A DNA stretch of 64,000 bases from Liolophura sinensis (taxonomy: Eukaryota; Mollusca; Polyplacophora; Chitonida; Chitonidae): NCBI RefSeq assembly GCF_032854445.1, contig NC_088295.1:1428501-1492500 (forward strand). The letters run 5' to 3'. Below are positions 9,806 through 61,506 of the stretch, piece after piece. The position numbers and the translations under genes were made by a program. Each line of letters begins with the position of its first letter. Within the stretch, counting starts at the first letter, position 1. Below the pieces are notes generated by a model that was given only the letters and a program-made list of their open reading frames with translations, searched no databases and was not told where the DNA came from.

Positions 9806-12225
<2,420 letters not shown>

Positions 12226-12570
12226 TTTGCTGCTTCACTGGCTGTCAACAAAACAAAACCAAACCAAAACAACTTAAATCCTTTAACAGGTAATTTTGAA
12301 AACCAAAATTTCAAAGATTACAAGAATGACAGACTTAATGCTCCTGTAGACTACGTCATGACAACAAAACTTCAGAATGTGTTACCATGGCTCACAGTTC
12401 TCTTCCTAGTAACTTAAAGTCAATAGCATTTGAAACTGGGTCATAATTTCCTGAAGAGACAAATATATAAAGAAGCATGGCAGTGTTTCCGATCTTTGAT
12501 CATTTACTTACACTGCTCACCAGTTATCAGTGTTTCTTTTCACTTCTATTTATGGTGCTGTTGCACTTGA

Positions 12571-19300: not shown

Positions 19301-22300
19301 AAAAGCAGTCTCCCAGAAAACTTGAAGAGACGTAATGTTGCTACAGTTCCTGTCTCTTGTCTGCAACATCCCCCCATCCCACGTTGCTCCCATGTGCAAC
19401 AAGCACCTGCTGGCCAGGACAGAGAGGGGGTGAATGTATGGGATCTGCCTACAGTGGACATAAAGCTGAGAGATAAACATGCTGGTGTACCCGACCTTAA
19501 TGACAGTGATAAGATGTGCTGTTTGACTCGGTCATCAGTTAAGTGGCAACCACTCTGTATTCCCAAGGTTTGTCTTCTACAAGTCTAATCAGTATTAGGA
19601 TTAAGGGATAAGTATTAGGATTAAGGGATACGTGAAACGATTTGTTTTATTTCTTATTGTGCAGATTATCATGTGTAATAGTACAAATAAATTTTTCAGC
19701 TATCACTTAGGGGCATGAAAATGGCTTCAAAATAATGTTTTTGATGCCCGAGCTGTCAGTCTGAAAATCAAGTAGCTTCCAGCGGTGACGTCGACTATGA
19801 TCCCTGATCAAAGAGAACTCTTGGGAGGGGGAGGGGGTACTCTGAACAGGACTGGCCGAATGAGGAGGGGGATGTTGGGAACAGGCCGATTGAGGTGGGG
19901 GGGTGTGTTGGGGCGCAGAGGGGGCGCTAAACTTGCCAGAAGAAGCCATGCAGTATCTGTGTACATATCACCTTGCTGACACTGTAGCAACACGGATCAC
20001 CTGGCTTGGGGCACTTTGGTGGTGTTCACAGAGTTCCGTGCAAGATCAGCGATGACGTAATTTCTGGTTTTGTCTTGTGGCCTACAGTATCCATATTATT
20101 GATAAGCAGTTGTGTCTAATGAGTGAAAATGTTGTGTTCTGTTAATAAGGAGTTTGTCTTCCCAAGGTAAATGTCCTTTTATTTGTCAGGATTTCTGCCA
20201 ACATGAAGACCTCCATGAAAAAGTTGTGGACGTACTGCTGAAGGAAATTCAGAGGAACAATCCAAATTTCCCTGTCCAGCGTTTGTACAAATGCTACCAA
20301 ACAAGGAAAGAAGAATATGCAAATAAAGGTGAGAAAAGGTATACCTGGATAGTACGGTGTAGACCTATCTTATAGGTATGTTGATGTCTAGGTGTAGCCA
20401 TGTATAGACATCAGAGAATAATCTCACCAGAACATGATGAATACCTGGTTGGAGCTGGTTGGTGGCTCTGACCAAGTGGTTGTGGTCTGTAGTAAGTCAT
20501 CATATCACAGCCTGCTTGGATCAGAACCAGCAGACCACTGAACATCCAATTAGAAATGTGGACATTAGATCTCGTCGTGGATGCCACAGTTGCTACTCGC
20601 AGTGGTTGTTGATGCCGCATTTGCTACTTGCAGTGGTTGTTGCACCACAGCCTGCTTGGATCAGCACCACCAACCACAGACACAGGTAGGAACTGTGAAG
20701 CAAAGTTCTGTTTGTCACACTGGCTAAGCGGCTGTGACAGCGTATCACTCAGTATTATACCACAGCCTGCTTCGATCAGACCCACCAGCCACAGACACAA
20801 GACAGAAACTGAACCAAAGCTCTGTATGTCACAACTGCCACACTGGCTAAGTGGCTGTGATAGTGTATCACCTAGTATCATATCACAGCCTGCTTAGATC
20901 AGTATCGCAACTTGTCAGAGCACATTCACGTTGTACCACATATCCGGGACAATGCACATGTTGTATCAGCTCCAACTGCCTGTGCATATGTACTGCTGGT
21001 TGGGTGACTGTGATTTGTGGTGATGAATCATATCACAGCCTGCTTAGATCAGCAGTAAGTCTGCTAATGACCTGCTCAGTGCTGACACCTGACCGCTTTC
21101 CTTGCCCCTGCTGTTGCTGCTTTCTGTTGGCACCCAGACTGTCCTGGTTTGTGCTGACCAAGTGACTGGGATTTGTAGCTTTGAACCATATCACAGCCTG
21201 CTTGGATCAGCATGAATAAAGGCATTTTTAGGGGGCATGCGGTACCTTTGAAGCCACCCGAGGATATAGAGCACATCATTTCAGTGCAGTACATGATGTT
21301 CCTGTCTCAACTTTCTAGGACTTCATTTTGAGAGTTTTGCATCCCTGACTAAGTGGTTGTGATTTGTTGATTGGCTCATATCACAGCCTGCTTGGATCAG
21401 AACTGCTCCTCATAAAACTCAACAGTGATGGCCATCAAGCTGAAGTGGACATGAAGTTATACCTGTATTGCTTTGTTGGTGGTGTGTGATAGTTAGCAGC
21501 TTGAGGTCTTATCACGAACTTGTGCTCACAGCTAGGCATTGAGGTATTAGAGTGCGCAGATTTTAGGGGTTGTTGCTTTGATATTTAACATCTGCGGAGT
21601 CGTTATGGACTCCTTAGTGATCGATGTAGTGCTGACTGGGTGGTGGTGGTGTGTGATGCCTGATGTCATATCACAGCTGCTTGGATCAGCACAACATATC
21701 ACAATAGTCTACAGGTGTATTGGCTGTGTATTGTGAACCCTGACCATATCACAGCTGCTTGGATCAGCACAACATGTCACAATAGTCTACAGGTGTATTG
21801 GCTGTGTATTGTGAACCCTGACCATATCACAGCGGCTTGGATCAGCCCAACATGTCACAATATTCTACAGGTGCGTTTCGGAAGTGTGCTGTTACTGGTA
21901 CATTGTCAGATGTGCAAAATGATAGCTAACACTGACCAGGTCTCTGTGGTGTACGATTTCTGATATCATATCACAGCTGCTTGGATCAGCATGTCAAAGT
22001 AATATACAGGTGTGCCGTGAGGAAAGTTGAAGGAGTGAGAGCTTCTGTGGAGTGTAAGGTGTGGTTAGGAAGTGTGCTGTAAATGCAATGTCAGATGTCC
22101 TTCAGTGCTATATGATAGGTAACACTGACCAAGTCGCTGTGTATTGTGAACTCTGACCATATCACAGCTGCTTGGATCAGCATGACATGTCAAAGTAATC
22201 TGCAGGTGTGCTGTGAGGAGAGTACAAGGACTGTACAGAGCTTTTGTTGAGTGTAAGGTGTGGTTAGGAAGTGTGCTGTGAATGCAATGTCAGATGTCCT

Positions 22301-25300
22301 TCAGTACTATATGATAGGTAACACTGACCAAGTCACTGTGTATTGTGAACTCCAACCATATCACAGCTGCTTGGATCAGCATGACATGTCAAAATAATCT
22401 ACAGGTGTGCCGTGAGGAATGTTGAAGGACTGTACAGAGCTTTTGTTGAGTGTAAGGTGTGGTTAGGAAGTGTGCTGTGAATGCAATGTCAGATGTCCTT
22501 CAGTACTATATGATAGGTAACACTGACCAAGTCGCTGTGTATTGTGAACTCCGACCATATCACAGCTGCTTGGATCAGCATGGCATGTCAAAGTAATCTG
22601 CAGGTGTGCTGTGAGGAGAGTACAAGGACGGTACAGAGCTTTTGTTGAGTGTAAGGTGTGGTTAGGAAGTGTGCTGTGAATGCAATGTCAGATGTCCTTC
22701 AGTACTATATGATAGGTAACACTGACCAAGTCGCTGTGTATTGTGAACTCCGACCATATCACAGCTGCTTGGATCAGCATGGCATGTCAAAGTAATCTGC
22801 AGGTGTGCTGTGAGGAGAGTACAAGGACTGTACAGAGCTTTTGTTGAGTGTAAGGTGTGGTTAGGGAGTGTGCTGTGAATGCAATGTCAGATGTCCTTCA
22901 GTACTATATGATAGGTAACACTGACCAAGTCGCTGTGTATTGTGAACTCCGACCATATCACAGCTGCTTGGATCAGCATGGCATGTCAAAATAATCTACA
23001 GGTGTGCCGTGAGGAATGTTGAAGGACTGTACAGAGCTTTTGTTGAGTGTAAGGTGTGGTTAGGAAGTGTGCTGTGAATGCAATGTCAGATGTCCTTCAG
23101 TACTATATGATAGGTAACACTGACCAAGTCGCTGTGTATTGTGAACTCCGACCATATCACAGCTGCTTGGATCAGCATGGCATGTCAAAGTAATCTGCAG
23201 GTGTGCTGTGAGGAGAGTACAAGGACGGTACAGAGCTTTTGTTGAGTGTAAGGTGTGGTTAGGAAGTGTGCTGTGAATGCAATGTCAGATGTCCTTCAGT
23301 ACTATATGATAGGTAACACTGACCAAGTCGCTGTGTATTGTGAACTCCGACCATATCACAGCTGCTTGGATCAGCATGGCATGTCAAAGTAATCTGCAGG
23401 TGTGCTGTGAGGAGAGTACAAGGACTGTACAGAGCTTTTGTTGAGTGTAAGGTGTGGTTAGGGAGTGTGCTGTGAATGCAATGTCAGATGTCCTTCAGTA
23501 CTATATGATAGGTAACACTGACCAAGTCGCTGTGTATTGTGAACTCCGACCATATCACAGCTGCTTGGATCAGCATGGCATGTCAAAATAATCTACAGGT
23601 GTGCCGTGAGGAATGTTGAAGGACTGTACAGAGCTTTTGTTGAGTGTAAGGTGTGGTTAGGAAGTGTGCTGTGAATGCAATGTCAGATGTCCTTCAGTAC
23701 TATATGATAGGTAGCACTGACCAAGTCGCTGTGTATTGTGAACTCTGACCACATCACAGCTGCTTAGATCAGCATGACGCGTCTGAATGATCTACAGGCG
23801 TGTGTGGAAAGTGCGGTGTGACTGAGTCCAGTGTACTTAATGTGATAGGTATCACTAACCAAGTTGTGGTGTGTGATCTCACCTATCACAGCTGCGTGGA
23901 TGAGCAGGACATGTCAGACTAGTGTACAGGTCTGCCATGAGGAGTGTTCATAAAACTGGTACATTTCCAGAGGGATGAAGTGTACTAGAGTACTGGGTGA
24001 TAGGTGATGCTGGCCAAGCCACTGTGGTCTGTTATCTTGTATCATATCACAGCTGCTTGGATCAGCAGAGCATATCACAACAATCTACACGTGCTGTCGG
24101 GTGTGTTTGGGGAGTGGGCTGTGACTGGTACCTTGTCAGATGTCTTTCAGTGATTATAGTTGACAACACTGGTTTGGTACTTATATTCATATCACAGCTG
24201 CTATCATCTGCATAACCAGTCACGATAATCTACAGGTGTGTTTTGACTGGTACTTTGTTAGACGAACGTAATATGACAGGTAATACTGACCAAGTCACTG
24301 TGGTGTGTGATATCTGATATCATATCACAGCTGCTTGGATCAGCATGGCATGTCGCAATAATCAACAGGTGTACCGCAGTATTCAACAGGTGTGCCAGGA
24401 GAAATGTTTGGAAAGTTTGCTGTGAGTGGTAGACTTGAGGACTTTGGTAGTAGGTGATGGTGACACTGACTAAGTGGCCGTGGTCTGTTATCTTCGATCA
24501 TATCACAGCTGCTTGGATCAGTATTACATCTCTAACTTCACTTCAGATCACTTCAGTCCGGAAAGTCTAGGAAACCTGTATTTGACCCTTCGACGACAAG
24601 TACTGTCTGGAATTTGGCCATGTGATTGAGATTTGTGGTTGTTGTCGTATCACAATCTGCTTGGATCAACATCATAACTGGTCATATATTCAACAGTCAT
24701 TTCTTTGCACAGAATGGCAAACTTGAGCAACTGTATTTATCCCTATTATAAGTCAAACTGCCTTGCTACAAGATATATATACAACTTGGGTGTGTTGATT
24801 TCACATTTGACTGTTGTCTTCAACAATGTTTTGTCTGCCCACAGGTTTGCTCACGAAAGTGACATCCACGGAAGTGGGTTGCCAACAGCCCAGCACTAAT
24901 ACGCCAGTAGCTAGCCAGGATAAGGTTTCTCCTCAGAAAGAGGATGAACGGAACGGCAAGCACAAGGGCAGGGCCTGCAGACGATTGATGACCATAGATG
25001 GTATGGTCAGTGCCCCAGTTACCAGTAGGCAGAGGTCAAATAGGCTGAGACGAAACAGGAAGTCTAAGGACCAGTCAGAGGACCCCCCAGTGGAGCCCCC
25101 AGTGCCAGCTGAGGTTAGGGGTGGGGAACATGTTTGTGTACCTGTGGCATCATCTCTTCACCATCAGGCCAGTCAGTCGCTGACTTCACAGCAGCAGAAA
25201 GACACAGGTACGCTGGCTGATACTGACTAAAGGCAGAACATTTCAAGCTCTCTCACTCGTCTAGCTGTAAACCCACCTGCCATCGTGTTTAAGGTAATTG

Positions 25301-28300
25301 ACTGTCAGTAGCTAGGTACTAAATTGGTTTGGATAGGAAATTTGTAGATCCCCCTGCTGTCACTGTTATGTGGGTCTTCAGTGAAGGAAAGCAGTCAAGC
25401 ACTCTGTGGCTCAAACAACTGCCATGATGTGATGTGTGAGGTTAAACTGGCTTGACATGAGGAAGAAAAGCAATGATTTTGAAGATGATATGGTTCATTG
25501 TATTGGTCAAGATTGCAGAATAAAGTGAGGTGAGTTTTCAGGGAAATATTTGTTTTGTATTGGGTGACAGGAAGAGAACAGCTGTGGACAGAGAAGTACC
25601 AACCCTCCCAGAGTCTCGAGATGATTGGCAACAGTGCAAACCTCAAGAGACTCAAGTCCTGGTTACAACAATGGAAACACCGTACGGATAAGGAGGCCAG
25701 GAGACTGGAGAAACTGCTGCGAAAACAGAGGAAGACGCTGGCTAAGGCCATGGAACCAGGTTAGCAGTCGACACATGTAGTTATCCCCCTGTTTAAATCC
25801 TGTGAAATCAAAAGCAAACACACATGTCCTATCACCATTTCACTGACTTTTGTAAATGGACACAGTGTAGAATACATTATTACGTTCTCATCATCATGAG
25901 TGCATCACTGAACAAGGACATGAGACAGGCTTGTAATCACTTGTAGTAACATATGACAGATTTGTCTTCATCAACAAAGAGAAATACACAATTTCAGGAA
26001 TTGTAAAGCTGCTATATTAGCTATAACTCGTATAAGTTCTGACTAAGTCATTTGACTTGGATTTTTCAGAGAGCAGCAACGATTGGTGGACAGACGATGA
26101 TAGTGACTTTGCCGACACTAAGACTGACAGGGATTGGCTGGAGGCTGAGGAGGATGCCCTGTGTAACACAATGCTAATTTCAGGGCCCATTGGCATCGGT
26201 AAAACAAGTGCTGTGTATGCGCTAGCCCAGGAATTAGGCTATCAGGTAATATTGGCTGTATATCTGGCAACATTGGCTGTATGTGCGTTAGAATAAAGTT
26301 GTTTGAACTGCACTCGCAAAGATGAGAACAGGCTTTAAATGAATTAGTTATTTATATCTGAGAGCTTATGGTTGTGTACTGACCCCATCTAGTCAAATTG
26401 TAACAGCCTAATGTGTGGGTGTTTTTTTTTTTTGTATTACAAGTGTGGGTAGAGTAATATTTTATGTTGACTCTTTGAAACCTTGTATTTTCCTCAAGCG
26501 GTGAGATACGTTGACACCCTGAAACCTAGTTTTTTCCTTTAATGGTGAGATACGTTGGTGCCCTGAAACCTTGTATTTTCCTTTAGTGGTGAGATACGTT
26601 AGTGCCCTGAAACCGTGTATTTTCTTCTAGTGATATAGATGATATACTTTGTAGTAAGGAAACATTCAAGTAATGTGCGATGCTTTCTGCTAATATTGAC
26701 AGGTGTTTGAAGTGAACTCGACGTCGTCCCGGGCTGGTAAGAAGATATTGGGCAAGCTTCAGGAGGCCACACAGTCCCACCAGGTGGCCAAACAGAGCAC
26801 GGACAAGGCACTGGTTGGATCCTCCACTCCAGGGAAAACACCGCACACAGGTGGGAAACTAGTTTGCTATCATGTGTAATGGCCTTTCTCTAAATGCTCC
26901 CATGGCCTAGGGGCCACTTGTGCACACTAACGCGGCACAATGACACTGGAGCCTCTCACCAATGCAGGTCCTGAGAGTTCAAGTCCACTGGCTGGTACAG
27001 TATTAAACCTCAGTTAAATAAATCCATCCAAATTCTCCCCATTTCTTTATACGGTCAGGTGATGAGGAAACTCGTGCATGTTAATGTTTTAGGTAACTAG
27101 ATTTAGTGAAGCAGGTACCCTGTTTTGATCAGGTACATGGGAGAGAGAGAGAAAATAGAAGTAGCATTAGAAATCAGACAAATTTCAAAATCTTGCCTAA
27201 CCTGTGCCATGGTAATTTTGAATTTGTTTATAAAGTTAGTTTGTGGGAAATATTTCTGAGACCATTAAGCACTGATTTATTTTCTGTCCCATCCACCGGG
27301 ACAGAAAATAAATCAGTGCTTAAGTGCAGAATGTTTGTTACAAGTTCACATGACCTCTTCTTCAGGCTCCCACATTACAGCCAGTCCTTTAAAAGCTGCC
27401 AAGATGCCCGCAGCTTTCACAAACCTCTTCAGGAAAACCAAACCTAAACCAGCTGATGTACAAGAGGTTATCACTATAGATGGTAGTGATAAGAAAAAGC
27501 CGAGTAAAGCTGTGGAATCAAAGAGAAAACGCTTTCGTGTTACGGAGGAGAAAGGTATGTTTAGGTTTGTGGGGTGGAACACATGTTGTTGGATAAACAG
27601 AAAGCATAGACAGAATGTTACCTTCAGCATGTGATAACATCCATCATTCAGACAGTCAAAATGTAAATGTTAGCTTTCTTTTAGTGTGGTAAATTTTGCG
27701 GTAAATTTACAATGATAATCTACAATTCTACTAGAATTGTACGGAAACCTGTAGGAGCCTGATGATGAAATAGTCCACTAATCAAATAAATAAAAGGCAG
27801 ATGGAAAGTGGATAATCTCTTTCTCAGCAGGTCTCCAGTCTCCAAAGAAGATGGCTGTAGGAAGGACGTTGAATTTCCCAAGTGTGGCTGCTGGTGACAG
27901 CAGCAGCAGCAGCTCTTCCATGGCCACAAAGGCTCTCAACCTGTCGAGTACCTCCCTCATTCTTTTTGATGAGGTAAGCACAATTCTTGCTATTGTAGTG
28001 TATTGTTTACCCACCCCCAACACACACTTCACAGTTTACCCACCCCCAACACACACTTCACATCAAAAGAAAAAACATACATTGGAATGAATAGAATATT
28101 TCACAAAGTCACCAACCTTAATCCTTAGGCCATGTTTCAGTCAAGAGCAAGTCTGATCTTTTTGGACAATCTGTATTCCATACAGAAGTTTGTTTGCTTC
28201 AGTTTTTTTTTCTGCCAGAGCCATGTGGCTCTAGTTGACCTGTATACTCATGGCCAAGTTGGATCTCTCACAGAAGGCTGACATGTTCCAGCTCAGCAGT

Positions 28301-36189: not shown

Positions 36190-38930
36190 TCAAATTTGGA
36201 TGTAGCCCTCTTTTGCTGCCCGGTTGCAGCTCCACTCAATCACACAGAAGGCGTACGCCCCGAGCGTGCCTGTTACCACCAGGATGAGCAGCTGCCAGTG
36301 CAGCAGCAGCTGTAAACTGTAGGCAAAGCCAATAGCAGCAGCCACCGACTGTAATCACAACAGATGATGCCAGCATCTCGTACAGTTTTATCAAGATTAA
36401 TGCATTTGCAGGAGCTAAAAAAAACAGAAGGCCACAATGTCCAAGTTCTCTTCACTTGGCCCCTGAAGGGAGGACACTGAGGCACACAGCCATAGAAACA
36501 CACAAACATGGAGGCACACAGCCATGGAAACACACAGACAAGGAGGCACACAGCCATGGAAACACACAAATGTGGAGGTGCGCAGCCATGGAAACACACA
36601 GGCGTGGAGGCACACAGCCATGGAAACAAACAGACATGGAGACACACAGACATGGAGGCACACAGCCATGGAAACACACAGACGTGGAGGCACACAGCCA
36701 TGGAAACACACAAACATGGAGGCACATATAGACATGGGTACACAAAGCCATGGAAACATAGAGACATGGAAATACATAGGCATGGGAACATACAGACATG
36801 GAGGCACACAGACATGGATATACATAGGCATGGAGGCACACAGCCATGGAAACACAGACGTGGAGGCACACAGCCATGGAAACACACAGACGTGGAGGCA
36901 CACAGCCATGGAAACACAGGCGTGGAGGCACATAGCCATGGAAACACACAGACATGGAGGCACACAGCCATGGAAACACACAAACAGGGAGGCACACAGC
37001 CATGGAAACACACAAACGTGGATACACACAGCCATGGAAACATACAGACATGGAAATACATAGGCATGGGAACATACAGACATGGAGGCACACAGACATG
37101 GATATACATAGGCATGGAAATATACAGACATGGAGGCACATGAACATGGAAATACATAGGCATGGAAATATACAAACATGGAGGCACATACACATGGAAA
37201 TACATAGGCATGGAAATATACAAACATGGAGGCACATACACTTGGAAATACATTGGCATGGAAACATACAGACACGGAGGCACACAGACATGGATATACA
37301 TAGTCATGGAAATACACAGGCATTGAGGCACATACACATGGAAATACATAGGCATGGAAATATACAAACATGGAGGCACATACACATGGATATACATAGC
37401 CATGGACACGTACAGACATAGCTTCTTTCAGAGGGAACAACAGGCATTGTTGCCTGTTGTTGACACCACTTACTCACTTACTGTATATATGTTGTCTTGT
37501 ATCTCTGTATGTTCATATGGTTTGATAACGATGTAAGAACCTACATCGAAACGTCACCAACACAATAAATCCAGGAATTGTTATCCTTAAGTAATGCCTC
37601 TGTCAACGTACAGACATGGAGGCACATAGACATGGATATACATAGGCATGGAAACATACAGACATGGAGGCACATAGACATGGATATACATAGGCATGGA
37701 CACGTACAGACATGGAGGCACATAGACATGGATATACATAGGCATGGACACGTACAGACATGGAGGCACATAGACATGGAAATACATAGGCATGGAAATA
37801 TACAGACATGGAGGCACATAGACATGGATATACATAGGCATGGAAACATACAGACATGGAGGCACATAGACATGGATATACATAGGCATGGACACGTACA
37901 GACATGGAGGCACATAGACATGGATATACATAGGCATGGACACGTACAGACATGGAGGCACATAGACATGGAAATACATAGGCATGGAAACATACAGACA
38001 TTTAGGCACATAGACATGGATATACATAGGCAGGGACACGTACAGACATGGAGGCACATAGACATGGAAATACATATGCATGGAAACATACAGACATGGA
38101 GGCACATAGACATGGATATACAAAGGCATGAAAATATACAAACATGGAGGCACATAGACATGGAAATACATAGGCATGGAAACATACAGACATGGAGGCA
38201 CATAGACATGGATATACATAGGCATGGAAACATACAGACATGGAGGCACATAGACATGGATATACACAGGCATGGAAACATACAGACATGGAGGCACATA
38301 GACATGGAAATACACATGCATGGAAACATACAGACATGGAGGCACATAGACATGGAAATACATAGGCATTACAAAAAATGAAGACCATATGTCCAAAGTA
38401 TCCTGTATGTATAGCTTATGTTGATTTAACACCAAGCTTCATGGCTTTATCTCCATACCTGTATATATATCTGTAACGTTCACTCTGAAATTTACTCACT
38501 CACTCCTGATGATGGCTCAATAAAGTGCCAAAATATTGAGTCAAAATGAGGCTTTTTTGTTTTCGGTTACACTACACTTTTAACTAATCAATGGACCACA
38601 ATTCATATGTCCCATGGTCTATGGACTAAGGAGGAATGGCATAGAGATAACATTTCCCAGCACAGAATTCAGGTGTGGTCATCATCAGGGAAGTGGTATT
38701 TATACTCGTGAATTAGGTGAGAGAATACTGCGGTGACAAAGTTACCTGAACAAACTTGTAGAGAGCAAACGCAGGAGCACTGTCTTCAGGGAACATAAAT
38801 CCCAACAGAGAATAAAGCTGGAAAAATAACAAATTCAAATGTTAGACAATTATTATAGATGTAGAAGAGCTTCGGAAATTTGTCACTGCTGGACGAATCT
38901 CATTCCGCTCATCACTTCTTTATGACAATC

Positions 38931-42000: not shown

Positions 42001-45000
42001 GCTGAACAGTCCCCTTCATATGTACCCTACTGGATATTCACATGAAAAATTTTCATGTTTCAACTGCTCGCCATCATAGACTAAACTAGCTGGACACTGC
42101 CTATCATAGACACCAGCACGGCTGACAACTGATCTAACGATGCACTCTGTACAAGGCTCCACACACTAATGCCATCAATCAAGGCTATATACACCAGCAT
42201 GGCTGACAACTGATCTAACAATGCACTCTGTACAAGGTGTCACACACTCCTGCCACCAATCAGGGCTATATACACCAGCATGGCTGACAACTGATCTAAC
42301 AATGCACTCTGTACAAGGTTTCACACACTCCTGCCACCAATCAGGGCTATGAACACCAGCATGGCTGACAACTGATGTAATGATGCACTCTGTACAAGGT
42401 TTCACACACTCCTGCCACCGATCAGGGCTATATACACCAGCATGGCTGACAACTCATGTAACGATGCACTCTGTACAAGGCTCCACACACTAATGCCATC
42501 AATCAGGGCTATATACACCAGCATGGCTGACAACTGATGTAACGATGCACTCTGTACAAGGTTTCACACACTCCTGCCATCAATCAGGGCTATATACACC
42601 AGCATGGCTGACAAATGATGTAACCATGTACTCTGTACAAGGTTTCACACACTCCTGCCATCAATCAGGGCTATGAACACCAGCATGGCTGACAACTGAT
42701 GTAACGATGCACTCTGTACAAGGTTTCACACACTCCTGCCATCAATCAGGGCTATAAACACCAGCATGGCTGACAACTGATGTAACGATGCACTCTGTAC
42801 AAGGTTTCACACACTCCTGCCATCAATCAGGGCTATATACACCAGCATGGCTGACAACTGATCTAACAATGCACTCTGTACAAGGTTTCACACACTCCTG
42901 CCACCAATCAGGGCTATGAACACCAGCATGGCTGACAACTGATGTAATGATGCACTCTGTACAAGGTTTCACACACTCCTGCCACCAATCAGGGCTATAA
43001 ACACCAGCATGGCTGACAACTGATGTAATGATGCACTCTGTACAAGGTTTGACACACTCCTGCCACCAATCAGGGCTATAAACACCAGCATGGCTGACAA
43101 CTGATGTAATGATGCACTCTGTACAAGGTTTGACACACTCCTGCCACCAATCAGGGTTATAAACACTAGCATGGCTGACAACTGATGTAATGATACACTC
43201 TGTACAAGGTTTCACACACTCCTGCCACCAATCAGGGCTATAAACACCAGCATGGCTGACAACTGATGTAATGATGCACTCTGTACAAGGTTTCACACAC
43301 TCCTGCCACCAACCAGGGCTATAAACACCAGCATGGCTGACAACTGATGTAATGATGCACTCTGTACAAGGTTTCACACACTCCTGCCACCAATTAGGGC
43401 TATAAACACCAGCACGGCTGACAACTGATGTAATGATGCACTCTGTACAAGGTTTCACACACTCCTGCCACCAATCAGGGCTATATACACCAGCATGGCT
43501 GACAAATGATGTAACTATGTACTCTGTACAAGGCTCCACACACTCCTGCCACCAATCAGGGCTATAAACACCAGCATGGCTGACAACTGATGTAACGATG
43601 CACTCTGTACAAGGCTCCACACACTCCTGCCACCAATCAGGGCTATATACACCAGCATGGCTGACAACTGATGTAATGATGCACTCTGTACAAGGTTTCA
43701 CACACTCCTGCCACCAATCAGGGCTATAAACACCAGCATGGCTGACAACTGATGAAACGATGCACTCTGTACAAGGCTCCACACACTCCTGCCACCAATC
43801 AGGGCTATAAACACCAGCATGGCTGACAACTGATGTAACGATGCACTCTGTACAAGGTTTCACACACTCCTGCCATCAATCAGGGCTATATACACCAGCA
43901 TGGCTGACAACTGATCTAACGATGCACTCTGTACAAGGTTTCACACACTCCTGCCACCAATCAGGGCTATGAACACCAGCATGGCTGACAAATGATGTAA
44001 CGATGCACTCTGTACAAGGTTTCACACACTCCTGCCATCAATCACGGCTATAAACACCAGCATGGCTGACAACTGATCTAACACTGCACTCTGTACAAGG
44101 TTTCACACACTCCTGCCACCAATCAGGGCTATATACACCAGCATGGCTGACAAATGATGTAGCCATGTACTCTGTACAAGGTTTCACACACTCCTGCCAC
44201 CAATCAGGGCTATATACACCAGCATGGCTGACAACTGATCTAACACTGCACTCTGTACAAGGCTCCACACACTCCTGCCACCAATCAGGGCTATATACAC
44301 CAGTATGGCTGACAACTGATCTAACAATGCACTCTGTACAAGGTTTCACACACTCCTGCCACCAATCAGGGCTATAAACACCAGCATGGCTGACAACTGA
44401 TCTAACAATGCACTCTGTACAAGGTTTCACACACTCCTGCCACCAATCAGGGCTATATACACCAGCATGGCTGACAACTGATCTAACAATGCACTCTGTA
44501 CAAGGTTTCACACACTCCTGCCACCAATCAGGGCTATGAACACCAGCATGGCTGACAACTGATGTAACGATGCACTCTGTACAAGGTTTCACACACTCCT
44601 GCCATCAATCAGGGCTATAAACACCAGCATGGCTGACAACTGATGTAATGATGCACTCTGTACAAGGTTTCACACACTCCTGCCACCAATCAGGGCTATA
44701 TACACCAGCATGGCTGACAACTGATGTAGCCATGTACTCTGTACAAGGTTTCACACACTCCTGCCATCAATCAGGGCTATATACACCAGCATGGCTGACA
44801 AATGATGTAACAATGCACTCTGTACAAGGTTTCACACACTTCTGCCACCAATCAGGGCTATAAACACCAGCATGGCTGACAACTGATCTAACAATGCACT
44901 CTGTACAAGGTTTCACACACTCCTGCCACCAATCAGGTGATATTCATGTTGAGAATATAATTAAAACCTAATCAGAACTTCTTCACTTATTTTTGTATAT

Positions 45001-48000
45001 GCAATATGTAACTCTTAGAAAACGCTCATCAATCCAAGTACAAAATTTGTTTTTATATTTAGAAACGGTTTTGACATATATATTAGCAATTTTCCATGTT
45101 TTCATTGATCACTCTCTGAAACCTCACTGAGGTATTTTTATCATTTTTCCTGATTAGAGATAGTTTGTTAGATATAGCCATCGGCTGGTAAATTACTGGT
45201 GAAAAGGCCAATTAGTTAACAAGCAATTACCATAAGGTTTTGTCCACATAGATAATACTGACCTATGATCTCCCCTGCTCCGATGAACATGCCCGAAATA
45301 CCCAGCAGACCTTTGGCGTCATTCCCAAAATGCTGAGTATGTCCTACACAGGTGCCATAGACACCACTGAAAAACGTCAGCTCCAAACCTACACAGATAC
45401 AGGGGTTTCATTGGTCAGTCACAATTACAAACTATCACTTACACCTATACACTCTCTAAAGTTTAGACACATTGTTTTTATTTATTTATATGACTGATTT
45501 TTAATGGTTTAGAAACTTATATAGGGATAGTCAAATTTATGGTGGAGGAAGAGCTTCAGGAAAATACTGCTCAGTGTAAGGTACCATCTAATTCTTCTGA
45601 CAAAAAGTCACAGCTAAAAAGATCTGGATTTGAATACCCAAACTGAATGATCCAGCTGGATTTGAACACCCAAACTAATGGGTCAAGGGAATGGCCAGCA
45701 GTAGCCATTCAGCAGTCGTGGCTTTAATGGGAGGAATTTAAGGGTAAATATAACCCTACTGACAAAGACGTAATCATTTCTCGTTCCTAATGGGAGATTG
45801 TAAACCTGTAACATTGTAAGCACAACCTCAGGGTGCAGACATGTACATCTCAGTACACCTGGCAATGCTGCAATCCTGCTTATTGGAAGTACAAAGTATC
45901 AGTGAGTTATTAAGACATCGTTATGGTAGGTATAGTTTAGAACATATTCACGCCATACACTCAAGTTCTGATTAGTTACGACACTGGACTAAAATGTCAT
46001 TTATACAAATGTTGGCAGGTTTTTGGAAACTTTGCTGAGTCCACTCAACGTCATCCTCTTCAGCACATCACTGGTTACTATGGTTTTAGTCAAAGTGGAT
46101 CTGTAGCTGTAGAAAACTGTCTTACCTGTATAGGCAAAGGTCAAGCTTAAAAACAGCATCTCTCTTGTCTTCAGCAGGTGGAAGGAACGCTCTGAAACAA
46201 TCATCCCAGACCTACACGTAAACAAGACATGGCAAACACTCCATCAGTCACACTCCATCAATCAACACTCCATCAGTCAAACACTCCATCAGTCAAACAC
46301 TCCATCAGTCAAACACTCCATCAGTCACACACTCCATCAGTCAAACTCTCCATCAGTCACACATTCCATCAGTCAAACTCTCCATCAGTCAAACTCTCCA
46401 TCAGTCACACACTTCATCAGTCAAACTCTCCATCAGTCAAACTCTCCATCAGTCAAACACTCCATCAGTCACACACTCCATCAGTCAAACACTCCATCAG
46501 TCAAACTCTCCATCAGTCACACGCTCCATCAAACTCTCCATCAGTCAAACACTCCATCAGTCAAACTCTCCATCAGTCAAACTCTCCATCAGTCAAACTC
46601 TCCATCAGTCACACACTCCATCAGTCAAACTCTCCATCAGTCAAACACTCCATCAGTCAAACACTCCATCAGTCATACACTCAATCAGTCAAACTCTCCA
46701 TCAGTCACATACTCCATCAGTCAAACATTCCATCAGTCAAACACTCCATCAGTCAAACACTCCATCAGTCAAACACTCCATAGGTCAAACTCTCCATCAG
46801 TCAAACTCTCCATCAGTCACACACTCCATCAGTCAAACTCTCCATCAGTCACACACTCCATCAGTCAAACTCTCCATCAGTCAAACACTCCATCAGTCAA
46901 ACACTCCATCAGTCAAACACTCCATCAGTCAAACTCTTCATCAGTCACACACTCCATCAGTCAAACTCTCCATCAGTCAAACACTCCATCAGTCACACGC
47001 TCCATCAAACACTCCATCAGTCACAAACTACCGGCTTTCTCTAAAATTAAACAGTAAAAATCATTCACTCATTTGTCACTTTTAATGCTGCCTTGATTTC
47101 ATGCAATCTGGTTTTGTATAATTACCCAAATAACAACTAAAAACAAACATCAAATTATACAATGCTTATACTTACTGAGTGCCTCCAGAGGAGTGTCCGA
47201 TTTGACCTTACTTATCGATGTGCTGAAACAGCGAGTCATCAAATACTGATACAAAAACTTCAGGTACCGAATCACATCCTCATAAACAGTAAGTCATTAA
47301 AACCTCCATCACATACTGGTACAAATCCTACATCAAGTACCGGTACAATTTAATTATTTATTTATTTGATTGGTGTTTTACGCTGAGCTCAAGAATATTT
47401 CACTTATACGACGGCAACCAGCATTATGGTGGGTGGAAACCTACTGGTGCAAAACCTGCACCAAGTATTGGCACAAATCCTGCACCAAGTACAAGTACAA
47501 ATCCTGCATCAAGAATTGGTACAAAACCTGCACCAAGTACTGGTACAAAACCTGCACCAAGTACTGGTACAAAAGCTCCATCAATTACAGGTACAAAACC
47601 TGCACCAAGTACAAGTACAAATCCTGCACCAAGTACTGGTACAAAACCTGCACCAAGTACTGGTACAAAACCTGCATTAAGTACTGGTACAAAACCTGCA
47701 CCAAGTACAAGTACAAATCCTGCACCAAGTACTGGTACAAAACCTGCACCAAGTACTGGTACAAAACCTGCACCAAGTACTGGTACAAAACCTGCACCAA
47801 GTACAAGTACAAATCCTGCACCAAGTACTGGTACAAAACCTGCACCAAGTACTGGTACAAAACCTGCACCAAGTACTGGTACAAAACCTCCATCAATTAC
47901 AGGTACAAAACCTGCACCAAGTACAAGTACAAATCCTGCATCAAGTACTGGTACAAAACCTGCACCAAGTACTGGTACAAAACCTGCACCAAGTACAAGT

Positions 48001-51000
48001 ACAAATCCTGCACCAAGTACAGGTACAAAACCTGCACCAAGTACAAGTACAAATCCTGCACCAAGTACTGGTACAAATCCTGCACCAAGTACTGGTACAA
48101 AACCTGCACCAAGTACTGGCACAAAACCTGCACCAAGTACTGGTACAAAACCTGCACCAAGTACTGGTACAAATCCTGCATCAAGTACTGGTACAAAACC
48201 TGCACCAAGTACTGGTCCAAATCATGCACCAAGTACTGGCACAAAACCTGCACCAAGCACTGGTACAAAACCTGCACCAAGTACTGGTACAAAACCTGCA
48301 CCAAGTACAAGTACAAATCCTGCATCAAGAACTGGTCCAAATCATGCACCAAGTACTGGTACAAAACCTGCATCAAGTAGTGGTACAAATCCTGCATCAG
48401 GTACTCGTACAAATCCTGCATCAGGTACTGGTACAAAACCTGCACCAAGTACTGGTACAAAGCCTGCGCCAATTACATATTCAAAATCTGCATCAAATAC
48501 TGGTACAAAACCTGCATCAAGTACTGGTACAAAACCTGCATCAAGTACTGGTCCAAACCTGCATCAAGTACTAGTACCAAAACCTCCATCACTAACAGGT
48601 ACAAAACCTGCATCAAGTACTGGTACAAAACCTGCATCAAGTAGTGGTACAAATCCTGCATCAGGTACTGGTACAAATCCTGCATCAGGTACTGGTACAA
48701 AGCCTGCACCAAGTACTGGTACAAAGCCTGCACCAATTACATATACAAAATCTACATCAGGTACTGGTACAAAACCTGCACCAAGTACTGGTACAAATCC
48801 TGCATTGAGTACTGGTACAAAACCTGCATCAAGTACTGGCACAAAACCTCCATCAATTACAGGTACAAATCCTGCACGAAGTACTGGCACAAATCCTGCA
48901 TCAAGTACTGGTACAAAACCTCCATCAATTACAGGTACAAAACCTGCATCAAGTAGTGGTACAAATCCTGCATCAGGTACTCGTACAAATCCTGCATCAG
49001 GTACTGGTACAAAGCCTGCACCAAGTACTGGTACAAAGCCTGCGCCAATTACATATACAAAATCTGCATCAAATACTGGTACAAAACCTGCACCAAGTAC
49101 TGGTACAAAACCTGCATTGAGTACTGGTACAAAACCTGCATCAAGTACTGGCACAAAACCTCCATCAATTACAGGTACAAAACCTGCTTCAAGTTCTGGC
49201 ACAAATCCTGCACCAAGTACTGGTACAGAACCTGCATTGAGTACTGGTACAAAACCTCCATCAATTACAGGTACAAAACCTGCATCAAGTACTGGTACAA
49301 AACCTGCATTGAGTACTGGTACAAAACCTCCATCAATTACAGGTACAAAACCTGCATCAAGTACTGGTACAAAACTGATATATTTTTTAGTTTCTGACTA
49401 ACCCAATCATTCAAAATTATTGACCAACACTATAGTTTTTGTCTGGGTATTGATTTAGGAATTTCAGTGTATCAAATATAAACATATCCATGGAAAGTCA
49501 AATCTGCTGTCACCTGGCATTCAATCCTATAAGACTGTTGGAATCTCTCTCTCTTCTCTTGCGGAGTAGGACCAGGGTGAGTATGCCCAGCCCACAAGCC
49601 CCAGACAGTCCCAGGAACAGCTTGGTCCTCTCTGACACAGGGATGTCAAAGTTCCCCCTCAGAGTGAGGTAAGAGTACAGGTTCCCAAACAACAAGCTGA
49701 AAACAATAAACATGAAAGTACAGGTAAAACAAGCTGAAAACAACAAACATGAGAGAACGAGTTACCAAAAAACAAGCTGAAAACAACAAACATGAGATTC
49801 CTGGTTACCACAAAACAAGCTGAAATCAACAAACATGAGAGAACAGGTTACCATAAAACAAGCTGAAACTATTAAACATGAGAGAACAGGTTACCATAAA
49901 ACAAGCTGAAAACAACAAACATGAGAGAACGAGTTACCAAAAAACAAGCTGAAAACAATAAACATGACAGTACAGGTTACCATAAAAAAGCTGAAACTAT
50001 TAAACATGAGTATGAGTATAAACAATAATCGAACAACTTAATCAAATTGATGAACAAGTTTACCACTTGTTTTCCCCACTCCTTACAGAAAATTACCATA
50101 ATATCCCATGTTTTCCCACTCCTTACAGAAAATTACCATAATATCCCATGTTTTCCCACTCCTTACAGAAAATTACCATAATATCCCATGTTTTCCCACT
50201 CCTTACAGAAAATTACCATAATATCTCATGTTTTCCCACTCCTTACAGAAAATTGCCATAATATCTCATGTTTTCCCACTCCTTACAGAAAATTACCATA
50301 ATATCCCATGTTTTCCCACTCCTTACAGAAAATTGCCATAATATCCCATGTTTTCCCACTCCTTACAGAAAATTACCATAATATCCCATGTTTTCCCTGC
50401 TCCTTACAGAAAATTACCATAATATCCCATGTTTTCCCACTCCTTACAGAAAATTACCATAATATCCCATGTTTTCCCTGCTCCTTACAGAAAATTACCA
50501 TAATATCCCATGTTTTCCCACTCCTTACAGAAAATTACCCTAATATCCCATGTTTTCCCAGCTCTTTCCAGGACCATTCAGTGTAACTACAAAACTTCAT
50601 ATGGAGTCAGATGGATATTGTTTTAGTAGCTTACTTAACTTTGTCAATGAGTTTTCAACGTCTTGAAAAGCTATTAACAAAATTTTAAAACCAACAAATT
50701 CTAATACTTTCCAGGAATTCAAGGATCAGTGGGAGCTCTTAATCAGTAATTATGGCTGACCCACACAAGCAGTGTTACTAGTAATTCTGCTTTATACACT
50801 TTTAACAAAACAGAAATTCAGTACATCGGATATCAGCATATGTAATTATTTTTGCACGACAAACACTGACTACACAGCATAACTCTGACCTGCATTGTAA
50901 CAAAGCCCAGAAAATTCCACTGTTTCTGCCCACAGTTTCAGTGTCTGAGTTAATAGTGAGGAAATTACCCTGCCCAGTCCATAAAACTGCAAAACACAAT

Positions 51001-57405: not shown

Positions 57406-58121
57406 GTCGAGCGCCTAATCGTGTATTTCGTCTAATCGTGTGATAGCGCCTAATCATGATAAAATACCTGTCGTGGGAAAACGCTGCGACTAATCGTGTA
57501 ACAGCGCCTAATCGTGTAACAGCGCCTAGTCGCGGTAACGTACTGCGTTTAGTCGTGTAACTGCGCATAATCGTCTTAAAATGCGGCGCCTAATCGTGTA
57601 ATATCGCCCAACAATGGAAAAGGACGCACTTAATCGTGGAACCTCGTTAACCCTAAAATATTGTCCAGTCAGCTTTAAATGGCGATGCTGACAGGTCAGC
57701 TATATTAACTTGTTACGTAAACAAAAAAAAAAAACGTACATTCAGGAAAATTAAGCACAATTATATTATTCAAATATTTTTTATTGAATTCAACCCGTAA
57801 TCCTTGCATCGATACCAGCAGTATAGTATCTTTAGAATTATTTTTCTCTCCGTTTCCAGAAGCTTTTAAAGTCATGTTTAACTAAACTACTGGCTACTTT
57901 TAAATATTTAAATATCTAGGTCGTATTTTGACAATATACAACAACGTCGTTGCCACAAAAGTCTTCATAGTCGTTAATAAGTCTCTGTAACGTACAACAA
58001 GCGTTGTTAATTCTTTACTTGAATAAACTAACATAATCTTCCTGTAAAAATAATAAGCATAGAAGGTGAATTTTCATGCTGAACTTTATTATCATGAATA
58101 CACTGTGGCTCAAGGAGATCG
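57406..58121 (+). mobile_element. Foldback element, left arm
   Basis: Starts GTCGAGCGCCTAATCGTGTA and has about nine subterminal copies of CGCCTAATCGTGTAAC-like units to 57605. A longer section follows (ACAATGGAAAAG, TTAATCGTGGAACCTC, GCGATGCTGACA, TTGAATTCAACCCGTAATCC, TTTCTCTCCGTTTCCAG, CGTTGTTAATTCTTTACTTG). Each of these reappears in reverse complement, in mirror order, in 60594-61506. Confidence 0.85.
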
Positions 58122-60593: not shown

Positions 60594-61506
60594 CGGTCTC
60601 TGTGCCACGGCGAATCTTTGATGATAAAGTCTTACATGTAAAACTCAACTGACGGTTTCTGAGCATACTAATCTCGCTGTAAGTTTCTAACAGTTTATTC
60701 CAGTAAAGAATTAACAACGATTTTTATACGTATAGAAAAGTACAGAAGACTTTTGTTGCAAGTGTTATAGTTTTTATTCTTTTTTATTCTGCTAAGAACG
60801 TACATCTACAGTGTCCCGTACCCGCCGACTCTCTCTTGCGGTAGCGTTGTGGCTTACATGTATCACGTAACACATACGTCACGGCACAAAATGATACATA
60901 TATTGTTTAATACAAAAACAGTGTTGTAGCATAGTGAAAAAAATTGAATTCAATATTTCAGTCTTTAAAAGTAGTCAGTATGTCATCTGAACATTATATA
61001 AGCGCCTGGGAATGGAGAGAAAATAATTCTAATGATATTACTGTTAGTATCGATGAAGGGATTATGGATTGAATTTAGTTATGTGTTAGCATCGCTATTT
61101 GAAACAAACTGGGCAATATTTTACAATGACTGAGGTTCCACGATAAAGCATGAGCTTTTCCCATTGTTATAAGATTATTCGCGAAATTTTACGCGATGTT
61201 ACACAATTAGGCACAGCATGTTAACGCGATTATATGCAGTTACACGATTGGGCGCAGCGTTTTACCATGATTAGGCGCAGTTACACCATTAGGCGCAATA
61301 TTTTACCATGACTAGGTGCAGTTAAACGGTTAGGCGCAATATTTTACCATGGCTATGCGCAGTTACACGATTAGGCGCAATATTTTACCATGACTAGGTG
61401 CAGTTACACGATTAGGCGCAATATTTTACCATGACTATGTGCAGTTACATGATTAGGCTCAGCGTTTTACCAAGATTACGCGCTGCTACACTATTAGGCG
61501 CTCGAC
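60594..61506 (-). mobile_element. Foldback element, right arm
   Basis: Inverted counterpart of 57406-58121. It ends CTATTAGGCGCTCGAC, the reverse complement of the left terminus apart from one base. About nine GCGCAGTTACACGATTAGG-type subterminal units lie at 61190-61500. The arm is about 200 bp longer than the left one and clearly diverged from it, so the duplication is not recent. Confidence 0.85.

Follow-up and report, generated by a model that had tools for sequence, protein, structure and literature searches.

Whether the long row of microRNA (miRNA)-like hairpins in one intron of the chiton Liolophura sinensis is an amplified and selected set of miR-2 genes, or chiefly the product of a young tandem repeat, is the question raised by the locus described here. 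It lies in a 64,000-nucleotide (nt) stretch of DNA (C1:1428501-1492500 of the 609-Mb genome), hereafter the window, in which feature positions are counted. The intron appears to belong to the orthologue of ATAD5, and the explanation that we consider probable is that a duplicated miR-2d was amplified in tandem inside this gene and is co-transcribed with it, which would raise miR-2 dose and yield a same-seed 3' variant. The intron limits given in the initial annotation proved exact, the first bases being GTGAGA at 20329 and the last bases CCACAG ending at 24844.

20329..24844, + strand: host intron of the array in the ATAD5 orthologue, 4516 base pairs (bp), GT..AG, containing the entire array

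A tolerant scan of this intron recovered 26 3' arms of miR-2 type, all on the + strand and spaced 78 to 290 bases apart. The word TATCACAG occurred 22 times on the + strand inside the intron, while the whole window, counted on both strands, held 25 occurrences against 4.0 expected, a number reached by none of 100 shuffles. About 26 hairpins with a miR-2 start had been annotated; the number stands for the arms, and the start has to be qualified, since the seed ATCACAG was kept in 23 of the 26 copies and was changed in h02, h03 and h26. The individual copies are the following.

20465..20529, + strand: h01, hairpin; arm identical to lgi/cgi-miR-2d over 22 nt; z -4.5; 77.6 bits with our own model
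20624..20669, + strand: h02, decayed, seed changed; 21.5 bits with our own model
20717..20784, + strand: h03, hairpin, seed changed to ACCACAG
20840..20907, + strand: h04, hairpin; top Rfam mir-2 score of the window, 44.5 bits (gathering 45.5)
20993..21057, + strand: h05, hairpin
21151..21215, + strand: h06, hairpin; arm identical to miR-2d over 22 nt
21342..21405, + strand: h07, hairpin; arm identical to miR-2d over 22 nt
21629..21694, + strand: h08, hairpin; first copy with the one-base-deleted arm (TATCACAGCTGCTTGGATCAG)
21709..21772, + strand: h09, deleted-form arm lacking a proper 5' arm; partial repeat of 78 bp
21787..21850, + strand: h10, deleted-form arm with one further change, without a proper 5' arm
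21929..21994, + strand: h11, hairpin
22122..22185, + strand: h12, hairpin
22321..22384, + strand: h13, hairpin
22520..22583, + strand: h14, hairpin; h14-h19 are identical
22719..22782, + strand: h15, hairpin
22918..22981, + strand: h16, hairpin
23117..23180, + strand: h17, hairpin
23316..23379, + strand: h18, hairpin
23515..23578, + strand: h19, hairpin
23714..23777, + strand: h20, weaker hairpin; z -0.6; arm nt 1 changed
23852..23909, + strand: h21, arm present, different fold
24007..24070, + strand: h22, hairpin
24157..24215, + strand: h23, decayed, seed intact, 3' half of the arm changed; 16.1 bits with our own model
24283..24348, + strand: h24, hairpin
24463..24526, + strand: h25, hairpin; top score with our own model, 78.7 bits
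24611..24674, + strand: h26, decayed full-length form, seed changed to ATCACAA

To count as a sound hairpin, the arm together with the 44 upstream bases had to fold with at least 16 arm nt paired to the 5' arm, no self-pairing and a folding free energy (dG) of -19 or lower. Folding of the segments, a check proposed in the initial annotation, gave stable structures for most of the series: 20 of the 26 copies passed. With h14-h19 identical to one another, these amount to 15 distinct sequences, and 19 of the 20, all except h03, had AUCACAG at nt 2-8 of their 3' arm. When the two arm forms were placed behind random 44-mers from the window, 44/3000 and 33/3000 passed, compared with 7/7 for the other miR-2 hairpins of the genome (six of the canonical cluster and one in MELK) and 0/10 for near matches found genome-wide. 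Folding z-scores below -2 were obtained for 20/26 copies, a set that differed slightly from the sound hairpins (h21 in, h20 out), and repeating the calculation for eight copies yielded values of -2.75 to -4.82. A covariance model of our own, built from 13 array hairpins and the miR-2d copy on C5, recovered all 26 places, partly by construction, with scores of at least 62 bits for 20 of them and 16 to 40 bits for the remainder.

Comparison with known mature arms, likewise proposed at the outset, supported the miR-2 identity. The first 22 nt of lgi-miR-2d and cgi-miR-2d (UAUCACAGCCUGCUUGGAUCAGU), as published in the tables of PMC4941716, are matched exactly by the arms of h01, h06 and h07, and the canonical cluster of the same genome holds the 23-nt form. 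The 18 copies h08-h25 have lost one C after the seed, and 14 of them are identical; this deleted form (UAUCACAGCUGCUUGGAUCAG) was found, within 2 mismatches, in the array intron only by a genome-wide pattern search (whole-genome pattern counts are lower bounds throughout). The full-length arm occupies both ends of the array (h01-h07 and h26), with the deleted form between them, a layout suggesting that the deletion appeared when the array was still small and was propagated afterwards. Seed, stem-loop and mature sequence all agree with the miR-2 family, which supports membership of the array copies as far as sequence can tell.

The conservation of the hairpins relative to their surroundings was measured between copies within this one genome. 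In a set of 19 copies, from which only the recent duplicates h13-h19 had been dropped, identity was 0.88 in the 3' arm, 0.58 in the loop, 0.57 in the 5' arm and 0.50 and 0.53 in the flanks, compared with 0.48-0.49 for shuffled sequence. Sets of 13 and 11 copies excluded decayed as well as recent copies, and among the 13 sound copies the 3' arm reached 0.91 and the 5' arm 0.64. Both flanks were at background in 133 of 171 copy pairs, in which the 3' arm still showed 0.87. This comparison shows the hairpin arm to stand above its flanks in conservation, and to be under constraint; the annotated divergence of the flanks around kept hairpins thus holds for the older copies, and not for h12-h20, whose units are 94-100% identical throughout. 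In the outer stem, one-sided changes of the 5' arm (6 kinds) kept pairing in 15/15 cells, two more cells being unpaired through changes in the 3' arm, whereas in the loop transitions made up 34 of the 77 changes. The stem of h04 carried a double change (CTAAG/CTTAG). The motif CNNC, which we take to be the SRSF3 site of animal primary miRNA transcripts, was counted in the 13-copy set: in 9 of these 13 non-recent sound hairpins it started 18-19 nt past the arm, against a mean of 1.3 for shuffled sequence, an adjacent-offset pair as high was seen in 1 of 2000 shuffles, and within 15-21 nt it was present in 9/13 hairpins as opposed to 24-26% of random places.

The assignment of the host rests on two exon-bearing open reading frames (ORFs) downstream of the array.

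25534..25764, + strand: ORF with an ATAD5 exon on the 3' side of the array intron (LWTEKYQPSQSLEMIGN...), matching 8uii_A together with the next exon
26036..26296, + strand: ORF with the ATAD5 Walker A exon (GPIGIGKTSAVYALAQELGY), Pfam AAA, E 6.7e-5

Exons downstream of the array matched human ATAD5 (8uii_A) with E 1.2e-22, the best match to a protein other than ATAD5 being 2.6e-8. The presence of an ATAD5-type AAA+ region supports ATAD5 as the host, as initially annotated. The two exons directly beside the intron gave no match better than E 0.48 in a PDB search and were assigned to the gene because of their position, strand and splice sites.

Where the array came from is suggested by the other miR-2 loci of the genome. 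The ancestral cluster (C5:1010422-1012713, - strand) comprises one miR-71 and six miR-2, one of which equals miR-2d over the full 23 nt. It lies between PPP4R1 exons identified by tblastn with the human protein (upstream, residues 146-166 with E 1.6e-5; downstream, residues 196-235 with E 3.6e-10); a PDB search with a PPP4R1 exon gave no match. A miR-71/miR-2 cluster in PPP4R1 has been reported for oyster and C. elegans (PMC4138081). Exact miR-2d occurred among the pattern matches at C5 (one copy) and in the array intron only, and the C5 copy is the likely source of the ATAD5 array. A lone miR-2 hairpin at C1:34515634-34515700 (- strand; TATCACAGCCAGCTTGATGAG), one base shorter than miR-2a, lies in sense orientation and is flanked by two protein-kinase exons, of which the downstream one matches MELK (4.1e-16). 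At the loci examined no SMC4 host as in oyster was seen, the SMC4 gene itself not having been searched for. No genome match within 1 mismatch was obtained for bgl-miR-1985-5p, a miRNA reported in snail, although the miR-2d form is that published for limpet and oyster.

The possibility that the array forms part of a miR-71/miR-2 cluster was rejected. The only miR-71 within 2 mismatches in the genome-wide pattern search was at C5:1012691, the window contained none within 4 mismatches over 23 nt, and a 16-nt version allowing up to 4 mismatches gave 5 chance-like matches there; the array is therefore a separate locus without linked miR-71. The ten near matches outside the three miR-2 loci failed the hairpin test (C3:3461895, C1:39797408, C1:49138817, C6:30041725, C8:37471638, C6:58909548, C1:44781000, C7:46767502, C8:51900761 and C13:5396635). 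The nearest to passing were C1:49138817 (14/22 paired, dG -12.5, z -1.2) and C7:46767502 (20/22 paired, dG -15.8, seed changed).

How much of the array reflects selection, and how much repeat growth, depends on the middle copies.

21967..23776, + strand: 199-bp tandem array detected by Tandem Repeats Finder (TRF), 9.1 copies

Copies h12-h20 sit in the 199-bp units of this block and contribute 9 of the 20 sound hairpins. Judged by sequence identity, the block is recent and the outer copies are old. It could be argued that the locus is mostly a young satellite, in which some older copies outside the 199-bp block are functional, while the block itself, expanded by unequal crossing-over in a region rich in minisatellites, adds little. 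Tandem repeats make up about 35% of the window (merged TRF rows), there are about nine 199-bp units, and a 597-bp block of three units is repeated at 596/597 bases. Eight units differ in 14 columns, none of which falls in the arm; since only 1.5 would be expected there, the block is uninformative on selection. However, the arm is conserved between old copies whose flanks cannot be aligned, 11 of the 20 sound hairpins lie outside h12-h20 (h01, h03-h08, h11, h22, h24 and h25), and the block hairpins h12-h19 themselves fold well (z -2.2 to -3.3), so that we regard the satellite explanation as unlikely. Near-identical 597-bp blocks are also the kind of repeat that assemblies miscount, and the number of 199-bp units could be wrong for this reason; the units nevertheless differ in 14 columns with an ordered three-unit pattern, and collapsing the block to one unit would still leave 12 sound hairpins. 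We consider such an assembly artefact very unlikely.

Several observations weigh against amplification of functional miR-2 hairpins. Six of the 26 copies (h02, h09, h10, h21, h23 and h26) fail the hairpin test, which would also fit an array of dead remnants that had lost processing and owed their conserved arm to slow decay or gene conversion. Flanks at background around 21-22 near-identical nt do not fit such remnants, and we judge it implausible that conversion tracts would be this short and this precisely positioned; we find this explanation hardly credible. In the inner stems, one-sided changes broke pairing in 5/10 cases and kept it in 5/10. Covariation was not above that of shuffles (156/500 were as high), as expected because the 3' arm is nearly invariant, and was rejected as proof of the stem. 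Several of the copies bearing CNNC share ancestry, 3 of the 6 non-sound copies have the motif as well, and among the 7 miR-2 hairpins elsewhere in the genome it lies at 18-19 in one and at 17 in three more. The whole window gave no Rfam match at gathering cut-offs, and the array is not filed as a match to RF00047 (mir-2) because its best score, 44.5, falls short of 45.5. At E <= 10 over 19900-25300 there were 41 rows, of which the top 16 were mir-2, all below the cut-off (E up to 0.054); the canonical miR-2d of the same genome scored 37.9 and another canonical copy 45.4, and the cut-off therefore misses copies of the ancestral cluster too. Lastly, strong co-expression was reported for only 21 of 76 intragenic miRNA-host pairs in oyster. 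Intragenic miRNAs often diverge from their hosts, and the hairpins could be expressed from a promoter of their own instead of the ATAD5 transcript; the sense orientation of the whole array within one intron, shared by the intronic copies in PPP4R1 and MELK, makes this quite unlikely.

Under the preferred explanation, tandem amplification of miR-2d within ATAD5, the hairpins would be transcribed in sense with the host, the microprocessor would release them from the intron, and chiefly their 3' arms would be loaded. The miR-2d form is that of the first copies, h01-h07; the one-base deletion after the seed would have arisen near h08, and the descendants of the deleted copy (h08-h25) would have spread, the 199-bp tandem block being the last step. 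Since the seed AUCACAG is unchanged, the effect would be mainly extra miR-2-type repression wherever ATAD5 is transcribed, i.e. in cells entering S phase, and the deleted form would act as a variant whose 3' pairing is shifted. Because PCNA is unloaded by ATAD5 during replication, miR-2 dose would follow S phase, so that the array may, as initially annotated, be tied to proliferating cells. Transcription, processing, dose effect, cell type and targets of the array are all predictions. Transcription with the host has a parallel in the oyster, in which the six mir-2 of the PPP4R1 intron were reported to follow host expression (largest r 0.93).

What additional miR-2 might do in such cells is suggested by work in other species. 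In Drosophila, miR-2 members have been described to act on reaper, and Yorkie to use them in limiting proliferation-induced apoptosis; a miR-2a reporter gave a negative result in wing discs (PMC3744074 for both). Gain of function of cgi-miR-2d lowered haemocyte apoptosis in oyster (PMC4941716). Further roles of miR-2 have been reported in molluscs, e.g. in shell formation (PMC12691275), and for this reason an anti-apoptotic reading is one of several.

ATAD5, MELK and SMC4 are all cell-cycle genes. A broader proposal, which we put forward tentatively and consider doubtful, is that the introns of S- and M-phase genes are where miR-2 copies come to rest after leaving the PPP4R1 cluster, that proliferation would in this way carry its own anti-apoptotic miRNA dose, and that the ATAD5 intron would be a replication-coupled amplifier with a new isoform of old seed. 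The pattern comprises three cases with no background count (ATAD5, MELK and SMC4, the last being the reported host of a dispersed mir-2 in oyster; PMC4138081) and is a lead, not a result; the Drosophila miR-2 hosts spitz and CG7033 fall outside it (PMC4138081). Apart from this proposal, a deeply conserved protostome miRNA present as about 20 sound hairpins within a single intron of a replication gene would offer a natural experiment on miRNA dosage, with the same seed, many copies and a cell-cycle host. Old and new copies side by side would show what selection keeps, and whether the dose in dividing cells depends on the copy number of an intronic miRNA could be tested directly.

The array had initially been described as exceptional in size, and it is indeed large next to the mir-2 clusters of the literature examined, which have six members in the PPP4R1 cluster of oyster (PMC4138081) and three and up to six in spiders. 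Like the protostome miR-71/miR-2 cluster, of which the PPP4R1 copies are intronic and sense, it has the seed, a 3' arm product and tandem duplication; unlike this cluster it lacks miR-71, consists of the miR-2d subtype only, has another host and carries the deleted-form arm. The agreement with lgi/cgi-miR-2d over 22/22 nt in h01, h06 and h07 likewise contrasts with the absence of one C after the seed in h08-h25. Large miRNA arrays as such are already known, in the literature examined mainly from mammals: the spider mir-3791 family was reported to have 34 copies, 13 of them in 50 kb, and C19MC and the Sfmbt2 cluster are known from mammals (PMC6346411). The mouse cluster in Sfmbt2 intron 10 (C2MC) is similarly a large tandem set of miRNAs in one intron of a coding gene (PMC6346411), whereas its unit consists of B1 retrotransposons and it is imprinted and rodent-specific, the chiton array being made of one ancient protostome family. 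Primate C19MC, with 46 genes, shares the character of a large lineage-specific cluster (PMC6346411) but spans ~100 kb of Alu-rich introns of a non-coding host, compared with 4.5 kb in an intron of a coding gene. What is new is the size within an ancient protostome family, the confinement to one 4.5-kb intron and the locus-specific arm variant. Searches of the open-access literature that paired mir-2 with ATAD5, expansion of its family with gastropods and its cluster with molluscs returned no paper. Overall, the initial annotation was partly confirmed, with the corrections given above, and its interpretation as miR-2 in ATAD5 was supported.

Outside the array, exons at 10992-12234 (- strand, opposite to that of ATAD5) carried a ribosomal S4/S9 N-terminal domain and an S4 domain and are likely those of RPS9. 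Further TRF arrays were located at 1-2000, 36483-38369, 42106-44937 and 47442-49375, and the minisatellite word GCGCCTAATCGTGTAAC was present at 57410-57601 and 61235-61501 in opposite orientations, ~3.6 kb apart.

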